From Candidatus Heimdallarchaeota archaeon (GTDB lineage: Archaea; Asgardarchaeota; Heimdallarchaeia; Heimdallarchaeales; Kariarchaeaceae), in NCBI GenBank assembly GCA_026702845.1, contig JADCLS010000030.1, positions 1 through 14,544 of the forward strand: a stretch of DNA of 14,544 nt, written 5' to 3'. Under the pieces are notes generated by a model that saw only the letters and a list, made by a program, of their open reading frames with translations, was not told where the DNA came from and made no database searches. Shown in pieces: positions 1,960 to 13,815 of this stretch. A program made the translations under genes and the position numbers. How positions within the stretch are numbered: position 1 is the first letter of the stretch; each line of letters starts with the position of its first letter.

Positions 1960-1964
1960 AGGAG
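1960..1964 (+). promoter_or_regulatory. Shine-Dalgarno site that fixes the CD36-like gene start
   Basis: AGGAG lies 7 nt before the ATG at 1972. It selects this ATG over the in-frame TTG at 1927, which would add 15 charged, non-family residues ahead of the membrane anchor. It also implies a leadered mRNA, unlike the apparently leaderless neighbours. Confidence 0.75.
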
Positions 1965-1971
1965 AAAACCT

Positions 1972-4900
1972 ATGAATACTAAGATAATTTTACCCATAGT
2001 ATTAGCCATTCTTGGAGTTGGTGCCTTGAGTGGTACATTATATGTGAATAACTATATTGAAGGCGAATTGGATGCTGGAATACATGATCTACTTGTGGTC
2101 AATCCAGATGATGCAGAATCATACGCCAATTGGCTAACAAGTGAAGATGCAGATGACGCTCCCCTCTATAAAAAATACTACCTCTGGGATCTAACCAATC
2201 CGGATGCGTTCCTGGCCGGATCCAAGCCTATTATGGAGGAAAAGGGGCCGTATGTCTACCGTCAGTATGATAGAAAGATAGACGTATCCTTTGATGATGA
2301 TGAGGTGACCTACAAGACCTACACGTACTATATCTTTGATGAGGACCTCTCTTGCTCCACCTGTTCCATTGGTGATGAAATTACCAATGTTAATCCCCAA
2401 TACCTCGGTGTACTTGCACAAGCAGGATCTGAGGCTGCATTGGTTACTGGTTTTGTTGGACCCACCATCACACAGGTGGTTGATGGGCTAACTGGTGACT
2501 TTGTGGATGGAGTAAAAGTTCAAGGAGCTGCTGCTGCACTTGAAACTGTTGTCGCAGGGCTTACAACTGATTTCGTGCAGGGAGTACTCGTACAGGGTGC
2601 TGCGACTGCAATTGATACCATCTTTCAAGGATTGCAAACTGATTTTACACAGGGAGTACAGGTACAGGGTGCTGCAGCCACTGTTGAAACCATATCCGCT
2701 GGACTTACGGGTGATTTTGCTCAGGGAGTTTTATTGAAAGCATTTCCTGATGTATTACTAGGCGTGCAGTCAGGTGTCACTGAGAATTTTGAATTTGCGG
2801 TCAATGCAACCACCGTAGCAGGTTACCTCAAGAATGCTTGGGTAACCATAGAATCTGGATCTGATCCTATCACTGCCAATGCACAACTTTTCAACTCCAC
2901 TGATTTCTCCACTGGGACATTTGCTGGTTTTGGAATAGAGAGTGTCTCTGAGTGGGCCACGAATGGTCAACTCAATTTAGGCTACTCCAATGCCACCATT
3001 GATAAACTGCTTCATACTGGACCTGGAATTGGTGGAATTCCTGGTTGGCTGGGTGATACTGACAGTGGAATGGGTGTACTTGGTTTTCTCAAATTATATG
3101 AGAATGCTACCAATAATCTTGGGGGATTGAATAATGATACTCTACAGTTCCTTTATGGTGCAGATCAACCTCTACTCGATGCTGCTGCGGGTTATCTTCT
3201 CAATCTTTGCGAGAACAATGCCACCATCAATGCAGCGACTATAGGTGCCAAGGGAGCAACTGCAAAGGTAATTGCTCCTACCATGTTCTATGATCAATGG
3301 GCCAATGCTACATACCTTCCAGGTGGTGCAGATATCAGTGGTGATGGTCATGCAGATGGTTTTGAATTAAGTTTACTAATTGATTCTAATATTACACTTG
3401 CTACTGCAATGAACCTATTTGATCCAACAAATGGCTATGCACTTACCAATGCCACTGGTATTGGTGTCTGGTTCCAATCAGCACTTGACGCACAGGAAGC
3501 TAATTATACAATTCATACAAATCTGGCTACTGCATTTAGTTTATCTGCTGATCAGATGAACCTCATCTACGGATGGCTTGTTGGCTTCAAGGATGGAATC
3601 ACCCAGGGACAGGTAATATTACAATTCTCACCCTATGGAGTGACAAATCTAGATGATGTAGGCTATCTACAGTGGGGTATGAATGCAACTGGTGTATCCC
3701 TACTCTCACTAGATCCTACTCTAGGTTATCCAGCTGAGTTCTGGCACTGGAGTAAAACTTTTGATACAGGTATATCGCTCAATCTTACCAATTCCCGTGC
3801 ATTACTCACCGGGGATTACAATCTAGCAAATACTACTGCTGCAGGAACATTCCTGACTCTTGCTGCTACTGCTGATGTAGCAACAATCAATGCACTCTTC
3901 GGATCAAAACTTGAATTGACTGAGATGGCCAAAGTTGCAGCCTATCTGCAGTACACCATGGGAAGTTTTGTTCTGGGTCAGATGCCATTTGCTACTTGGG
4001 ATGAATTTGCTTTCTTCCATTTTGGAAATGGAGCAGCAACTTCAAATTACGGATTATTTGATGCTGAAGCCACTCCTGCCCAAGCAGAATTCTGGGATTG
4101 GTCTATGGATATAGAGGGATCAAATGCCACATTATTACAATCTGATGTGGAGGGATTAATGTCTGGACCTAGTCTCAATCTAACCAGTTCTACAGGAGTC
4201 GGTGCTTTTCTGCTCCATGCAGCAATGGGCAATATCACGGGAATCAATGCTTTATTTGGTACTAATCTGGATCTAACCCAGATGGCACTACTCGTGGGAT
4301 ACATTCAACATATCCAGAGTGCCTTTGTGGTTGCCTCATTTGCTCCTGTAGGTGTGACAACAGCCACTGATCTAGGGTATCTACAATTTGGTAGTGATGT
4401 AATCGGTGCAGGTAGCTTATTGGATCTTGAGACACCCCTTCCAGGGGAGGCTGAGTTCTGGGCATGGTCAGCACGTACGGCGGTAGGAACCCCTGGATAC
4501 ATGCTAGATCTTGCAACAAGCAAGGCAATTCTGTCTGGTGATAATACCATGACTAATATGACCAACCTGGGTACTTTTCTAGCGTTGGCTGCTGGTGCAG
4601 ACTTCACCACCATCGAGGCATTATGGGGATTGAATAGCTCAGAAGCTGTTGCATTCGCTGGTTATCTAACCTACATGATGGATACTTTCGTACTAACCAG
4701 CTTTGCTCCATACGGTGTGTCTACATGGGATGATGTGGCCTATTTGCAATGGGCAACACCCTATGTCAGTGGAGTTAGTCTATTCAAACTACAACCCTCA
4801 CTTGGCTTCTTCCCAGAACTATGGACTCATGCAAGAAATGTCTCCGAATCACCCTATGAATTCACCCTTGCCAAGGCAAAGGCTGTTCTAACAGGTACTT

Positions 4901-5973
4901 ACTCCTTACTAGATAGCACAAATGCTGGAATGTTTCTCGTTCTAGCAGGCAGCGGTGCTTCAGGACTTACCCAGATCAATACACTCTGGGGCTTGAATGC
5001 AACTGATGTTGGAGCACTTGCTGCTTGGTTACAGTATCTCATGGCAGGACCTATCACTGCAGTACTAACCCCTGTATTCGCTGCAGGTGGAGGTTTGATA
5101 ACCACCAGAACTGTCAATGAGTGGCTATGGGATTACTCAGATCCACTGCTTGAATTTCTTGTTGCAAATGGACAGGATCTTGATACCTCTGCTAACTTCT
5201 TTGGTAATGATACCAGTGAGGATGATGCAAGAGAGGGATTGAGTAACACCTATAACACAGGTAAGAATGATATCAACAAAGTTGGTCAGTATATCAAGTA
5301 CCAAGAATCCACTACAGTTGATGTCTGGGCATCCTCAGAGCATGTGAGAGGTACAGGCGGTACGCAGTTTGCCCCAGATGTTGATGAGGCAGATACACTG
5401 GTTGCCTGGGTAGGAGATCTCTTGAGAGCTGTTGATTTTGTCTACCAGAGTGATGTGGTTGTAGAGGGTATAGACCTCCTCAAATTCGTCCTAGCTGCCA
5501 AAACATTGGGATCATCTGCTGAGTATGCAGAAAATGCCAAGTACTACCAGGGTGTCAAAGGATTGGGTAATATGACCGCAGCTATTGGTGCACCACTATT
5601 TCTGAGCAAACCTCACTTCCTTGATGGTGCTGGTTATCTATCTGATCTTGCTGGAGTAAATCCAGTCAGAGCAGATCATGATACCTATCTCTCGGTCGAG
5701 CCCACCTCAGGTGCAGTATTTGATGCTAGAAAGAGATTACAAATTAATCTTGATGTTACCCCATCCAATTTCTTCACTACAACAGTGTATGATGCCTTTG
5801 TACCAGTAATCTGGATAGAGGAAGGAGCAACCATTCCCAAAGATTCTGCTGAATCATTCAAGGATGTGGTATATAGTGCTCAGAATATTCAAGAAAATAC
5901 TGCTTCGTATCTACCAGCAATGGGTGTCTTACTGATATTCGCTGCTGTATTTACCACCAAAAGAGCATTATAA
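1972..5973 (+). CDS. CD36/LIMP-2/SR-BI-family two-pass membrane protein with giant repeat insert
   Basis: A 1333-residue protein. Residues 5-25 form an N-terminal membrane segment with a short cytosolic start, and 1312-1328 a C-terminal one with tail ending KRAL: the two-anchor topology of CD36. Residues 64-126 carry family landmarks (PLYKKYYLWDLTNP, KP..EEKGPYVYRQY, YYIFDEDLS). Residues 1047-1333 carry the rest in order: TVNEWLWDYSDPLL, NDINKV (1099-1104), QSDVVVEGIDLLKFVL (1159-1174), PHFL (1214), 'NP..ADHDTYLSVEP.SG', KRLQINLDV (1254), FVPVIWIEE. Without residues about 160-1046 the protein would be about 447 long, close to human CD36 (472). The insert replaces the apical helix bundle with repeats and carries some 20 N-x-S/T sequons. 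Only three cysteines (128, 131, 417) exist, so the CD36 disulfides are absent. Eukaryotic relatives bind or channel fatty acids, lipoproteins or lysosomal enzymes; an extracellular binding role is inferred and the ligand is unknown. Confidence 0.88.
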   Translation: MNTKIILPIVLAILGVGALSGTLYVNNYIEGELDAGIHDLLVVNPDDAESYANWLTSEDADDAPLYKKYYLWDLTNPDAFLAGSKPIMEEKGPYVYRQYDRKIDVSFDDDEVTYKTYTYYIFDEDLSCSTCSIGDEITNVNPQYLGVLAQAGSEAALVTGFVGPTITQVVDGLTGDFVDGVKVQGAAAALETVVAGLTTDFVQGVLVQGAATAIDTIFQGLQTDFTQGVQVQGAAATVETISAGLTGDFAQGVLLKAFPDVLLGVQSGVTENFEFAVNATTVAGYLKNAWVTIESGSDPITANAQLFNSTDFSTGTFAGFGIESVSEWATNGQLNLGYSNATIDKLLHTGPGIGGIPGWLGDTDSGMGVLGFLKLYENATNNLGGLNNDTLQFLYGADQPLLDAAAGYLLNLCENNATINAATIGAKGATAKVIAPTMFYDQWANATYLPGGADISGDGHADGFELSLLIDSNITLATAMNLFDPTNGYALTNATGIGVWFQSALDAQEANYTIHTNLATAFSLSADQMNLIYGWLVGFKDGITQGQVILQFSPYGVTNLDDVGYLQWGMNATGVSLLSLDPTLGYPAEFWHWSKTFDTGISLNLTNSRALLTGDYNLANTTAAGTFLTLAATADVATINALFGSKLELTEMAKVAAYLQYTMGSFVLGQMPFATWDEFAFFHFGNGAATSNYGLFDAEATPAQAEFWDWSMDIEGSNATLLQSDVEGLMSGPSLNLTSSTGVGAFLLHAAMGNITGINALFGTNLDLTQMALLVGYIQHIQSAFVVASFAPVGVTTATDLGYLQFGSDVIGAGSLLDLETPLPGEAEFWAWSARTAVGTPGYMLDLATSKAILSGDNTMTNMTNLGTFLALAAGADFTTIEALWGLNSSEAVAFAGYLTYMMDTFVLTSFAPYGVSTWDDVAYLQWATPYVSGVSLFKLQPSLGFFPELWTHARNVSESPYEFTLAKAKAVLTGTYSLLDSTNAGMFLVLAGSGASGLTQINTLWGLNATDVGALAAWLQYLMAGPITAVLTPVFAAGGGLITTRTVNEWLWDYSDPLLEFLVANGQDLDTSANFFGNDTSEDDAREGLSNTYNTGKNDINKVGQYIKYQESTTVDVWASSEHVRGTGGTQFAPDVDEADTLVAWVGDLLRAVDFVYQSDVVVEGIDLLKFVLAAKTLGSSAEYAENAKYYQGVKGLGNMTAAIGAPLFLSKPHFLDGAGYLSDLAGVNPVRADHDTYLSVEPTSGAVFDARKRLQINLDVTPSNFFTTTVYDAFVPVIWIEEGATIPKDSAESFKDVVYSAQNIQENTASYLPAMGVLLIFAAVFTTKRAL
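2485..2736 (+). repeat. 24-residue (72-bp) tandem repeats in the CD36-like protein
   Basis: Three full units start with glycine codons at 2485, 2557 and 2629, exactly 72 bp apart, and a partial fourth begins at 2701. The unit reads G-L-(T/Q)-(G/T)-D-F-(V/T/A)-(D/Q)-G-V-x-(V/L)-Q-G-A-A, then (A/T)-x-(L/I/V)-(E/D)-T and three variable residues. Alternating small and hydrophobic positions suggest a short helical or amphipathic repeat. In residue terms it covers about 172-255, right after the N-terminal CD36 segment. Confidence 0.9.
3625..5073 (+). repeat. Four ~120-residue repeats in the CD36-like insert
   Basis: Units begin near 3625, 3985, 4339 and 4702 and the last ends near 5073. Each has, in order: 'F.P.GV...DD.(G/A)YLQ(W/F)', 'PAEFW.WS' (second unit: AEFWDWS), 'L(N/D)L..S.A(L/I)L(T/S)G....', 'N...(A/L)GTFL.LAA', 'INALFG' and 'LT.MA...AYLQY.M..FV'. 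Amino-acid identity is partial and DNA identity lower, so these are old duplications. Two more divergent units seem to precede them (about 2890-3270 and 3280-3620), recognisable by 'QWANAT', 'NATGIGVWF' and 'LSADQMNLIYGWL'. The predicted fold is mostly helical. Confidence 0.8.
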
Positions 5974-11148: not shown

Positions 11149-13815
11149 TCACTTTTTTGGATTCCTTCTTCTTAAGATAACTGCAATTGACACAAAGGAG
11201 AGAAGGAGGAAGCTGATAGGTCCTGCACTGGTATCACTAGTGTTAAGTTCAATTGGTGTTGTTATGTTGGTTATTGAAATGGTTGTGGTAGTAGTATAAA
11301 CTGTAGTCTCAGTGGAAGCAGTAGTGGTTGTGACAATTGAAGTGTTGACTATTGTAGTTGTAACTGGCTCATTAGTGGTGTTTTCAGTCACATCAATGAA
11401 GATGGTATCACTTTCTGTATTACCATGAGAATCAAAGACATTGAGAATTAAGGTGTGTTGACCAATACCTAACCCATCCACAACAATTGATATCAATCCA
11501 TTTTCCCCGACAGTCTCTCCAACAAAGAGATCACCATCCAAGGTGGCATTATACGAGCTAGAATAATCTTGAATAATTGTCCATTCTAACACATTCCCAG
11601 TAGTCGCCCATTCGTAAGAAATATCATCTGGAGAAGAAATTATCATTGTGTACATACCAGCATCATTAATCTGCCATTGAAAAGTATCCATAATATACTG
11701 CCGAGATGCTGCAGAACTACCATAATGACAGAGGTTTGCATCTAACCTCACCTCTTCCTGCAATGGAAGCTCTGACCAAGAAGAAAGCATATTGTCATAA
11801 TAGGGAACGGAGATTTTTACTTCATTCAGCATAGATCTCATATCTTTTACTCTGGAGACATCCCAAGAAGAAATATCCTGATTGAATGATCTGGTACCAT
11901 CAAACATTGATCTCATATCAGTCACACTGGATACATCCCAGAAACTCAAGTCTTGATTGAAATATGGAACATGCTCAAACATTGATTTCATATCCGTGAC
12001 ACTTGATACATCCCATGAGTTAAGCGATTGATTAAATTCATTAGCATACTCAAACATATAACTCATATCCGTGACGTTAGAAACATCCCAAGAAGAAATA
12101 TCCTGATTAAATGACGTAGCACCATCAAACATCGATCTCATAGTTGTGACCAGAGATACATTCCATACATTAATATCTTGATTGAAGGCACTCGCAAATT
12201 TAAACATGGAGCTCATATCAGCAGCTCTTGAAACATCCCAGTTCAGTGGTTGGTTGAAGGCCCTAGCTCTCTCAAACATTGATTTCATATCAGTAACACG
12301 GGATACATCCCATGAGCTAATGTTTTGATTGAATGAAATAGCCTCATCGAACATAGAATTCATATCAGTTACACGGGATACATCCCATGATCCAATATTT
12401 TGATTGAATGAACTGGCCCCATAGAACATAGAATCCATTTTCTCTACACTGGAGGTGTTCCATGAGCTAATATCTTGATTAAATAAACTGGCATCCTGGA
12501 ACATTGAACTCATTGAGCTAACCTGAGAGGTATCCCATGAACTGATGTCTTGATTAAATGTAGTTGCACCCTGGAACATGGAGAACATATGTCTGACACT
12601 GGAAGTATCCCACAAGTTGAGTGACTGGTTGAATGCAATAGCATCTTGGAACATCTGATACATAGATTGAATCCCAGAAACATTCCATATATTAAGAGCT
12701 TGATTAAATAGACTAGCTCCATTAAACATAGCACTTGTATATATAACATTAGACATGTCCCATGATTCAAGTGGTTGATTGAATGAAATCGCATTTTGAA
12801 ACATAGTACTCATATCATGAATACCAGTTACATCCCATGAACTAAGATCTTGATTAAATGAGCTAGCTCCATTAAACATACAACTTATGGAATAAACATT
12901 GGAGATATTCCATGAATTGAGAGGTTGATTGAATGCAGTTGCATCTTGAAACATGCCATATAAATACGTTAAACCTGAAACATCCCAGGAGTTGAGAGGT
13001 TGATTGAATGAACTTGCACCTTCAAACATGTAATAGATATGATTTACACTGGAAATATCCCATGAATCGAGTGGTTGGTTGAACGCAGTCGCATCCTTGA
13101 ACATGTATGGCATATACACTACTCCGGACACATCCCAAGTACTAAGATCTTGATTGAATGAACTTGCCCCTTCAAACATATTGGCCATTGAAGTAACACT
13201 GGAGACATCCCATGAGCTAATATTTTGATTGAATGAACTGGCACCCTGAAACATTTTCACCATTAAACTAATACTAGAAACATCCCAAACAGCCATGGAT
13301 CCTTCAGAACCCAGAGCTTGACAATTTGCAAAGGCCGAAGCTAATGAGGAAGTACTACTCAAATCTGGAGCATCAATCGCAGTCAAGACTAAATTTTCAG
13401 CCCCAGTAAAGCTATAGCTACCAATACCCAAATCTCCCCATTGAGAGATCTCAATAATCTTCAGCCGATCACCCTCATTGTTGAATTCCCAACCTTTGAT
13501 TGTGCCAGAAATACTTACATCATACACACCCTCGGTAGCATAAGTATGTGTAACTTCGGCTTGATCATACATAGAAATATAATCTGAGGTACTATCTCCC
13601 CAATCCACGTCAAAACCATAACTTCCAGAAGCTTTTAGGGGAAGCTTAATCTGATTGCTTGAACTAGAACCACTACTAACCAAAGTAGTATCCCACCTTG
13701 ATAGAAAAGGGGAAGTAAGATCAACAAAGGATATTGTTATTCCATTACCTTCTGTTTCAACCAGAGCTATGGAACATAAAATTAAAAGAATGAGTATTAC
13801 TCGAAATTTTATCAT
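11149..13815 (-). CDS. Large cell-surface protein with DUF285/BspA-type 25-residue repeats
   Basis: An 888-residue secreted, C-terminally anchored protein. Residues 1-22 are a signal peptide ([16 protein letters not shown] core). Residues about 38-110 form the N-terminal domain seen with these repeats ('[13 protein letters not shown]', '[17 protein letters not shown]'). About 177-680 hold 20 tandem repeats of the DUF285 (PF03382) or BspA/Listeria 26-residue type; '[22 protein letters not shown]' closes the array. About 715-810 form an Ig-like domain ('[11 protein letters not shown]', '[18 protein letters not shown]'), then a Thr/Ser-rich, probably O-glycosylated stalk (about 812-860), and a membrane segment [15 protein letters not shown] followed by RRRNPKK. 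Probable role: extended surface scaffold or adhesin; partner unknown. Many repeats contain N-x-S/T sequons. The start is supported by a leaderless-position TATA box. Such repeats are best known from bacteria and some protists. Confidence 0.9.
11779..13287 (-). repeat. Twenty tandem 25-residue (75-bp) DUF285 repeats
   Basis: Units start at each Trp codon, the first at 13287 and the twentieth at 11865. The unit reads W-D-V-S-x-V-T-D-M-x-S-M-F-x-G-A, then x-x-F-N-Q-(D/P/N)-(I/L)-x-S. Nineteen are well formed; the twentieth is degenerate after 'SML' and runs into the capping sequence. Eighteen of the first nineteen are exactly 25 residues; the fourteenth lacks one codon ('FNQPLN' directly followed by 'WDVS'), near 12240. 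No frame is broken. Confidence 0.95.

Follow-up and report, generated by a model that had tools for sequence, protein, structure and literature searches.

We found that a 14,544-nucleotide contig of a Candidatus Heimdallarchaeota archaeon (JADCLS010000030.1, assembly GCA_026702845.1; this whole stretch is called the window) encodes a 1,333-aa protein of the CD36/scavenger receptor class B (SR-B) family (1972..5973, + strand), in which a tandem-repeat apex of ∼880 aa lies between the two halves of the CD36 core (residues ∼165 to 1040). On balance, we favor the interpretation that this Asgard member of the CD36/LIMP-2/SR-B family is a putative lipid receptor at the cell surface, or a transfer barrel, that bears a mast of tunable length, which is probably glycosylated. 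An initial annotation, made from the sequence without database searches, had named the family but did not describe the apex.

The open reading frame (ORF) runs from an ATG at 1972 to a stop codon ending at 5973, with the program-made ORF listing beginning at an upstream TTG. As first annotated, the gene is intronless and has a Shine-Dalgarno-like AGGAG (1960..1964, +) 7 bases 5′ of the ATG. PF01130 matched the whole protein in two stretches (E 1.5e-87; 294.5 bits against a curated cutoff of 26.5), and the termini taken alone, a check proposed at the outset, gave E values of 2e-26 (residues 1 to 165) and 4e-61 (residues 1040 to 1333). A profile made from 28 presumed eukaryotic SR-B sequences only covered residues 8 to 157 and 1038 to 1329 (full E, 1.2e-85), leaving a gap between its positions 165 and 177, where the ∼880-residue insert falls. 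Eight of the nine matches in a PDB sequence search (E ≤ 10) were LIMP-2 or CD36 (4e-36 to 5e-34); we take the ninth, IscU at E 0.03, to be chance. PF01130, the profile of presumed eukaryotic sequences and the PDB matches thus agree with the initial assignment to the CD36/LIMP-2/SR-BI family.

The N-terminal core occupies residues 39 to 155 (2086..2436, +) and the C-terminal core residues 1037 to 1327 (5080..5952, +), the latter opening with the hinge motif ITTRTVNEWLW at residue 1043. Kyte-Doolittle 19-mer peaks of ≥1.6 start at residues 5 and 1310 only, with none between, and predict the N-terminal (1984..2040, +) and C-terminal (5899..5955, +) membrane anchors that had been claimed from the sequence. 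Two such anchors flanking the ectodomain belong to the operational definition of SR-B proteins in PMC10715195. A fold comparison had been suggested at the outset; the predicted fold of a 49%-identical homologue is the asymmetric beta barrel of CD36 and LIMP-2. The window protein itself would face outward and have a putative lipid tunnel. With three cysteines, of which two lie in the core, it cannot form the three disulfide pairs of bilaterian members; nine of the other Heimdall proteins have no cysteine and one (L034) has a single one. These pairs, known from animals and not found outside them according to PMC10715195, do not define the family.

Architecture of the apex insert

The insert ends directly before the hinge TTRTVNEWLWDYSDPLL, which we infer, by position, to be the M6 of PMC10715195. 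Repeat scores reached 199 at a lag of 24 residues and 157 at a lag of 121, against maxima of 36 and 44 among 200 shuffles. The 24-aa repeats span approximately residues 152 to 275 (2425..2796, +), with the clearest units opening with DF at residues 176, 200, 224, and 248, and they fall within a predicted single stalk helix of 135 residues (residues 162 to 296; 2455..2859, +). In the best model of the window apex (residues 134 to 1070; mean predicted local distance difference test [pLDDT] score, 82.7; predicted template modeling [pTM] score, 0.57), this helix is followed by further helices, including six long ones.

A module hidden Markov model (HMM), built from the four clearest modules of the window and iterated on the Heimdall set, recovered five helical modules at E ≤ 1e-3, all on the + strand: module 2 (residues 438 to 545; 3283..3606; 2e-22), module 3 (residues 556 to 669; 3637..3978; 7e-35), module 4 (residues 674 to 788; 3991..4335; 4e-30), module 5 (residues 794 to 909; 4351..4698; 4e-36), and module 6 (residues 915 to 1029; 4714..5058; 2e-38). 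A first, degenerate module (2863..3282, +; limits approximate) is suggested by a weak match at residues 367 to 414 (E ∼1) that overlaps the first of the six long model helices (residues 399 to 424). A known fold for the mast was sought and rejected: Foldseek with the whole-apex model returned neither PDB nor viral matches at E ≤ 0.001, which is not evidence of a new fold.

Stalk length, measured from NPxYxGV to VN[AG][ST], rises with module number among ten Heimdall-class proteins (figures read off the HMM and repeat results). Stalks of 58, 82, 106, 130, 150, and 178 aa go with 3, 4, 5, 6, 7, and 8 modules, respectively, and L037 has 82 aa with 5. The expression 58 + 24(n − 3) is exact in 8 of the 10 proteins, P0006 being off by 4 and L037 by 24. 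By the fitted slope, each further module goes with 23.9 aa of stalk (r 0.98, unchanged when only one of three near-copies is kept, n = 8), and the array gains 118.8 aa, about one module, per 24 aa of stalk. Close relatives covary: the window protein (6 modules, 130 aa) groups in the tree with P0003 and P0005 (4, 82), and P0007 (6, 130) with P0008 (5, 106). We credited the window with 6 modules and P0006 with 7, in both cases one above the count at E ≤ 1e-3, because of array length and weak matches (E ∼1 and 3e-3); the six long helices of the later window model agree with the former count. Short partial matches in P0001, P0002, P0003, and P0004 were left uncounted, and the hinge of P0005, missed by the pattern in the module scan, was subsequently placed as in P0004. 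These lengths suggest a ladder in which each module would cover one 24-residue, 36-Å rung of the helix.

N-glycosylation sequons are concentrated in the insert (20, versus 7.6 in shuffles) and not in the CD36 core (2, versus 2.5). The excess recurs in 9 of 10 further archaeal proteins, which stand above all 300 shuffles, while the count of L029 was equaled or exceeded in 17 of 300. The sequon-rich mast is therefore probably a glycosylated spacer, and it likely lies on the outer side of the membrane.

Several observations weigh against this interpretation. Counting modules at E ≤ 1e-3 only lowers r to 0.94 (n = 10) or 0.93 (n = 8) and misses the first module of the window; L037 departs from the length rule by one whole 24-aa unit; and the rule was fitted once the lengths had been seen. 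Kinship among the proteins and the post hoc nature of the rule also make the p values look stronger than the evidence is. L034, an eleventh protein of the Heimdall class, was excluded, since it has no stalk landmark and gave no module at E ≤ 1e-3 in the module HMM search; in further scans, default filters yielded no match up to E 10, and maximum sensitivity a single one (E 4e-4). The pTM scores are 0.64 and 0.57 (the latter for the window apex), and mean pLDDT falls to between 67.5 and 78.2 in the other four of the five apex models, and therefore the overall rod arrangement is less sure than its parts. N-glycosylation of the window protein by the Asgard host is an assumption.

With these reservations, a mechanism can be proposed for a lipid receptor with a mast. 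The two predicted anchors would hold a lipid-tunnel-type beta barrel on the outside of the cell membrane. From the barrel apex, one continuous helix, grown in 24-residue steps, would run outward, and an equal number of ∼120-residue helical modules would return along it to the barrel, as the structure prediction and the length covariation suggest; the modules would pack on the helix. Because 135 residues at 1.5 Å each give ∼200 Å, the mast would raise a capture surface by about that distance, through or beyond a glycan or S-layer coat. At that height the mast would bring hydrophobic ligands or the surfaces of partner cells to the receptor, and the barrel would conduct lipid into the membrane, as proposed for SR-B proteins. 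The initial annotation had suggested a eukaryote-like surface receptor in archaea; the family and the Asgard source stand, as does, at the level of prediction, the membrane topology, and the receptor role itself is putative.

LIMP-2/SCARB2 and CD36, the class B scavenger receptors, differ from the archaeal window protein in having no such ∼880-aa apex of stalk helix and modules. Some eukaryotic SR-B proteins do have apex expansions, with ectodomains of up to 2,294 aa, which PMC10715195 treats as independent; like them, the archaeal expansion is helical and precedes the hinge within the apex. Among the matches of our protein searches, we recognized no eukaryotic sequence with a long apex.

Distribution and ancestry of the archaeal proteins

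A search with the whole protein returned 8 matches including itself, one of them NCBI-named Candidatus Hodarchaeales, and a genome scan reduced 105 pattern matches to 5 loci (two titled Heimdallarchaeota, two archaeon isolate Dive96, and one Lokiarchaeota). All NCBI names among the 47 matches of a profile search were Asgard; two members, P0053 and P0054, were animal-like. The closest relatives are proteins of Heimdall/Hodarchaeales metagenome-assembled genomes (MAGs), in line with the Asgard source proposed at first and contrary to a eukaryotic contig, which had been named among the findings that would overturn the initial annotation; nor did the two others, a lack of significant profile matches at the ends and a fold unlike the CD36 barrel, turn up. 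Our prokaryote survey comprised the Asgard phylum (227 genomes; the phylum of the Loki genome) and 14 control genomes. PF01130 was present in 11 of the 227, namely, 5 of 58 in the class of G001 (also that of the Heimdallarchaeota-titled G002) and 6 of 83 in the Loki class, and by subtraction in none of the other 86. None of the 14 controls exceeded the PF01130 cutoff, Thermotoga maritima having one match below it. A viral origin was also considered and rejected: none of the 94 pattern matches obtained by scanning viral contigs with alignment A4 was a relative.

The Heimdall-made module HMM matched 38 of 165 other proteins (37 at E ≤ 1e-3), all of them among the 52 other archaeal pool members and none among the 113 of the eukaryotic-type set. 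Since the apex module occurs in both Loki and Heimdall proteins, it probably predates the split between them within the CD36 family. The phylogenetic check initially proposed took the form of a tree with 70 cores, joined or whole. In it, the archaeal sequences form one clade (100/99) containing Loki-like (100/99) and Heimdall (96/88) subclades with long internal branches, and the 28 presumed eukaryotic rows lie on the other side. Of 58 archaeal sequences supplied, 10 were skipped (anchor pattern missing or too short), and thinning of the 48 joined ones left 42 rows; on the eukaryotic side, a filter on length and motif kept 95 of 113 matches, from which 28 representatives were taken. All organism-naming labels in the eukaryotic set are animal; we assume eukaryotic status for the rest, and protists are hardly sampled. 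P0139, P0146, and P0164 are long branches, and the placement of their forks beside the archaea comes from midpoint rooting, which does not fix the true root. With this root and this sampling, the tree would fit ancestry as well as an old transfer.

Four Loki-type CD36 proteins carry other names at NCBI (P0012, P0016, and P0052, Hodarchaeota; P0014, Hermodarchaeota) and may reflect mislabeled bins or inter-Asgard transfer; none is in the 42 kept rows. Extensions past the second anchor in P0006 (∼124 residues) and P0028 (∼215 residues) are presumably intracellular and could be signaling or binding parts.

Alternative explanations of function and origin

One alternative, which we rate as unlikely, is that the protein exports the cell's own lipids or glycolipids for its coat, like actinobacterial LmcA/PgfA of the PorA family (PF11271), with the mast as a part of that coat. 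The likeness of LmcA to CD36 has been published (PMC8972800 and PMC9678360), and PorA scores hint at a relation. Ten of 30 scanned A3 members (29 archaeal proteins plus P0053) matched the PorA profile at E ≤ 0.1 (best, 7.3e-8), compared with 2 of 28 eukaryotic-type members (best, 0.064), and the relative L034 passed the PorA cutoff (32.5 bits versus 29.5). Because of these better scores, the archaeal forms may be nearer the bacterial LmcA/PorA side than the eukaryotic-type forms are. Against this hint, the window protein itself has no PorA match at E ≤ 10; sequence similarity between LmcA/PgfA and the archaeal proteins is weak, and the fold is much less similar to LmcA than to LIMP-2/CD36. According to PMC8972800, LmcA lacks the three-helix apex bundle; LmcA/PgfA have a single protruding helix and no mast. 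A 318-aa PorA/DUF3068-like protein does occur in an Asgard-phylum genome (L039 621-1574, −, genome G227; E 9.8e-12) and may be contamination, that family being called exclusive to actinobacteria in PMC9678360. As a bridge to PorA it was rejected, with an hhalign probability of 0.4% against archaeal alignment A2.

A late transfer of the gene from a eukaryote into Asgard archaea appears similarly improbable. It would account for the patchy occurrence in 11 of 227 possibly incomplete genomes and for the wide distribution of SR-B proteins in eukaryotes (PMC10715195). It could also explain a CxxC at residues 128 to 131 (2353..2364) that aligns with CxxC pairs of the eukaryotic-type P0053, P0125, and P0139 and is absent from the other Heimdall proteins checked. 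However, the two-part archaeal clade with its long internal branches speaks against it, as far as the thin protist sampling allows, as do the presence of the apex module in both Loki and Heimdall proteins and in none of the 113 eukaryotic-type ones, and the higher PorA scores of the archaeal forms. Foreign base composition was considered and rejected, with a third-position GC content (GC3) of 0.34 for the CD36 gene against 0.25 to 0.43 for the measured neighbors.

Somewhat less probable still is an adhesin, in which the CD36 barrel would be a mere anchor and the glycosylated mast would bind partner cells or surfaces. A long repeat rod of variable copy number with a sequon-rich surface would suit this role, as would the DUF285 repeat surface protein encoded in the same window. 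However, repeats by themselves are not evidence of adhesion, CD36 core landmarks are conserved over Loki and Heimdall members, and the Loki homologues retain the core, usually with a single clear module match.

Eukaryotic contamination or a chimeric assembly is very improbable even for the window, a single 14.5-kb contig with no marker gene: the gene is intronless, the modules are common to archaeal homologues only, and because homologues in the 11 genomes lie on contigs of up to 504 kb, one of which (L004) also encodes archaeal HMG-CoA synthase (548 bits; cutoff, 353) and archaeal EF-2 (745; cutoff, 738), we hold contamination to be excluded for the archaeal CD36 family as a whole. The sequence relations also uphold an archaeal origin of the window contig, based on the Heimdall/Hodarchaeales relatives of the CD36 protein, the prokaryote-style intronless genes and, weakly, the adjoining alcohol dehydrogenase. 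In an Asgard-only search, the top match of the latter (46%), of 7 Asgard ones, falls in the Heimdall class; it matches the CD36-bearing genomes, where at all, at 28 to 29%.

Gene neighborhoods and significance

Apart from CD36, no window ORF matched ORFs at 12 other loci (E ≤ 1e-6). The window also encodes an 888-aa surface-type protein of DUF285/PARCEL repeats (11149-13815, −; PF03382, E 1.8e-254) with an anchor-like C-terminal end; the models matched there carry Mycoplasma and Listeria names. In all 6 Loki-class genomes with a CD36 gene, a conserved protein of ∼240 aa is encoded close to that gene, in varying orientation (L029 11101-11820; L030 12495-13229; L031 10840-11580; L032 6692-7390; L033 10526-11329; L035 14756-15460 and 15537-16313). 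It is winged-helix-like by mostly sub-cutoff Pfam matches (3 copies scanned) and is a candidate regulator. Lipid metabolism genes occur near some homologues, including HMG-CoA synthase and thiolase at L004, methylmalonyl-CoA mutase at L033, and, at L005 (7854-12163), a same-strand AMP-binding fatty-acid CoA ligase-like gene following a CD36 gene, the contig having a second one; noted without comparison to background, these are a lead only. In a Loki genome, a 2,713-aa ORF (L035 5887-14025, −) lies between two CD36 genes.

In animals, SR-B receptors serve the transport of lipoproteins, fatty acids, and lysosomal cholesterol, and their presence in the last eukaryotic common ancestor has been inferred (PMC10715195); in the main text of that paper, neither archaea nor prokaryote appears as a word. 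Automated Pfam labels for archaeal CD36 proteins already exist; among the literature matches listed, a search whose scope left out most subscription journals and preprints, we found none on CD36 in Asgard archaea. A tentative and rather doubtful scenario is that class B scavenger receptors were an Asgard invention, inherited vertically by eukaryotes, that arose from an LmcA-related lipid-handling barrel and in archaea acquired a ladder mast with one module per 24-residue rung, giving a length-tunable lipid receptor. If the Asgard branch is genuine, the prokaryotic ancestry of SR-B receptors becomes testable by phylogeny and structure. The rule of one module per 24 residues would be an unusual and simple protein architecture. 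Asgard archaea would also gain a candidate surface lipid receptor, which bears on how the archaeal ancestor of eukaryotes may have handled lipids and partner cells.

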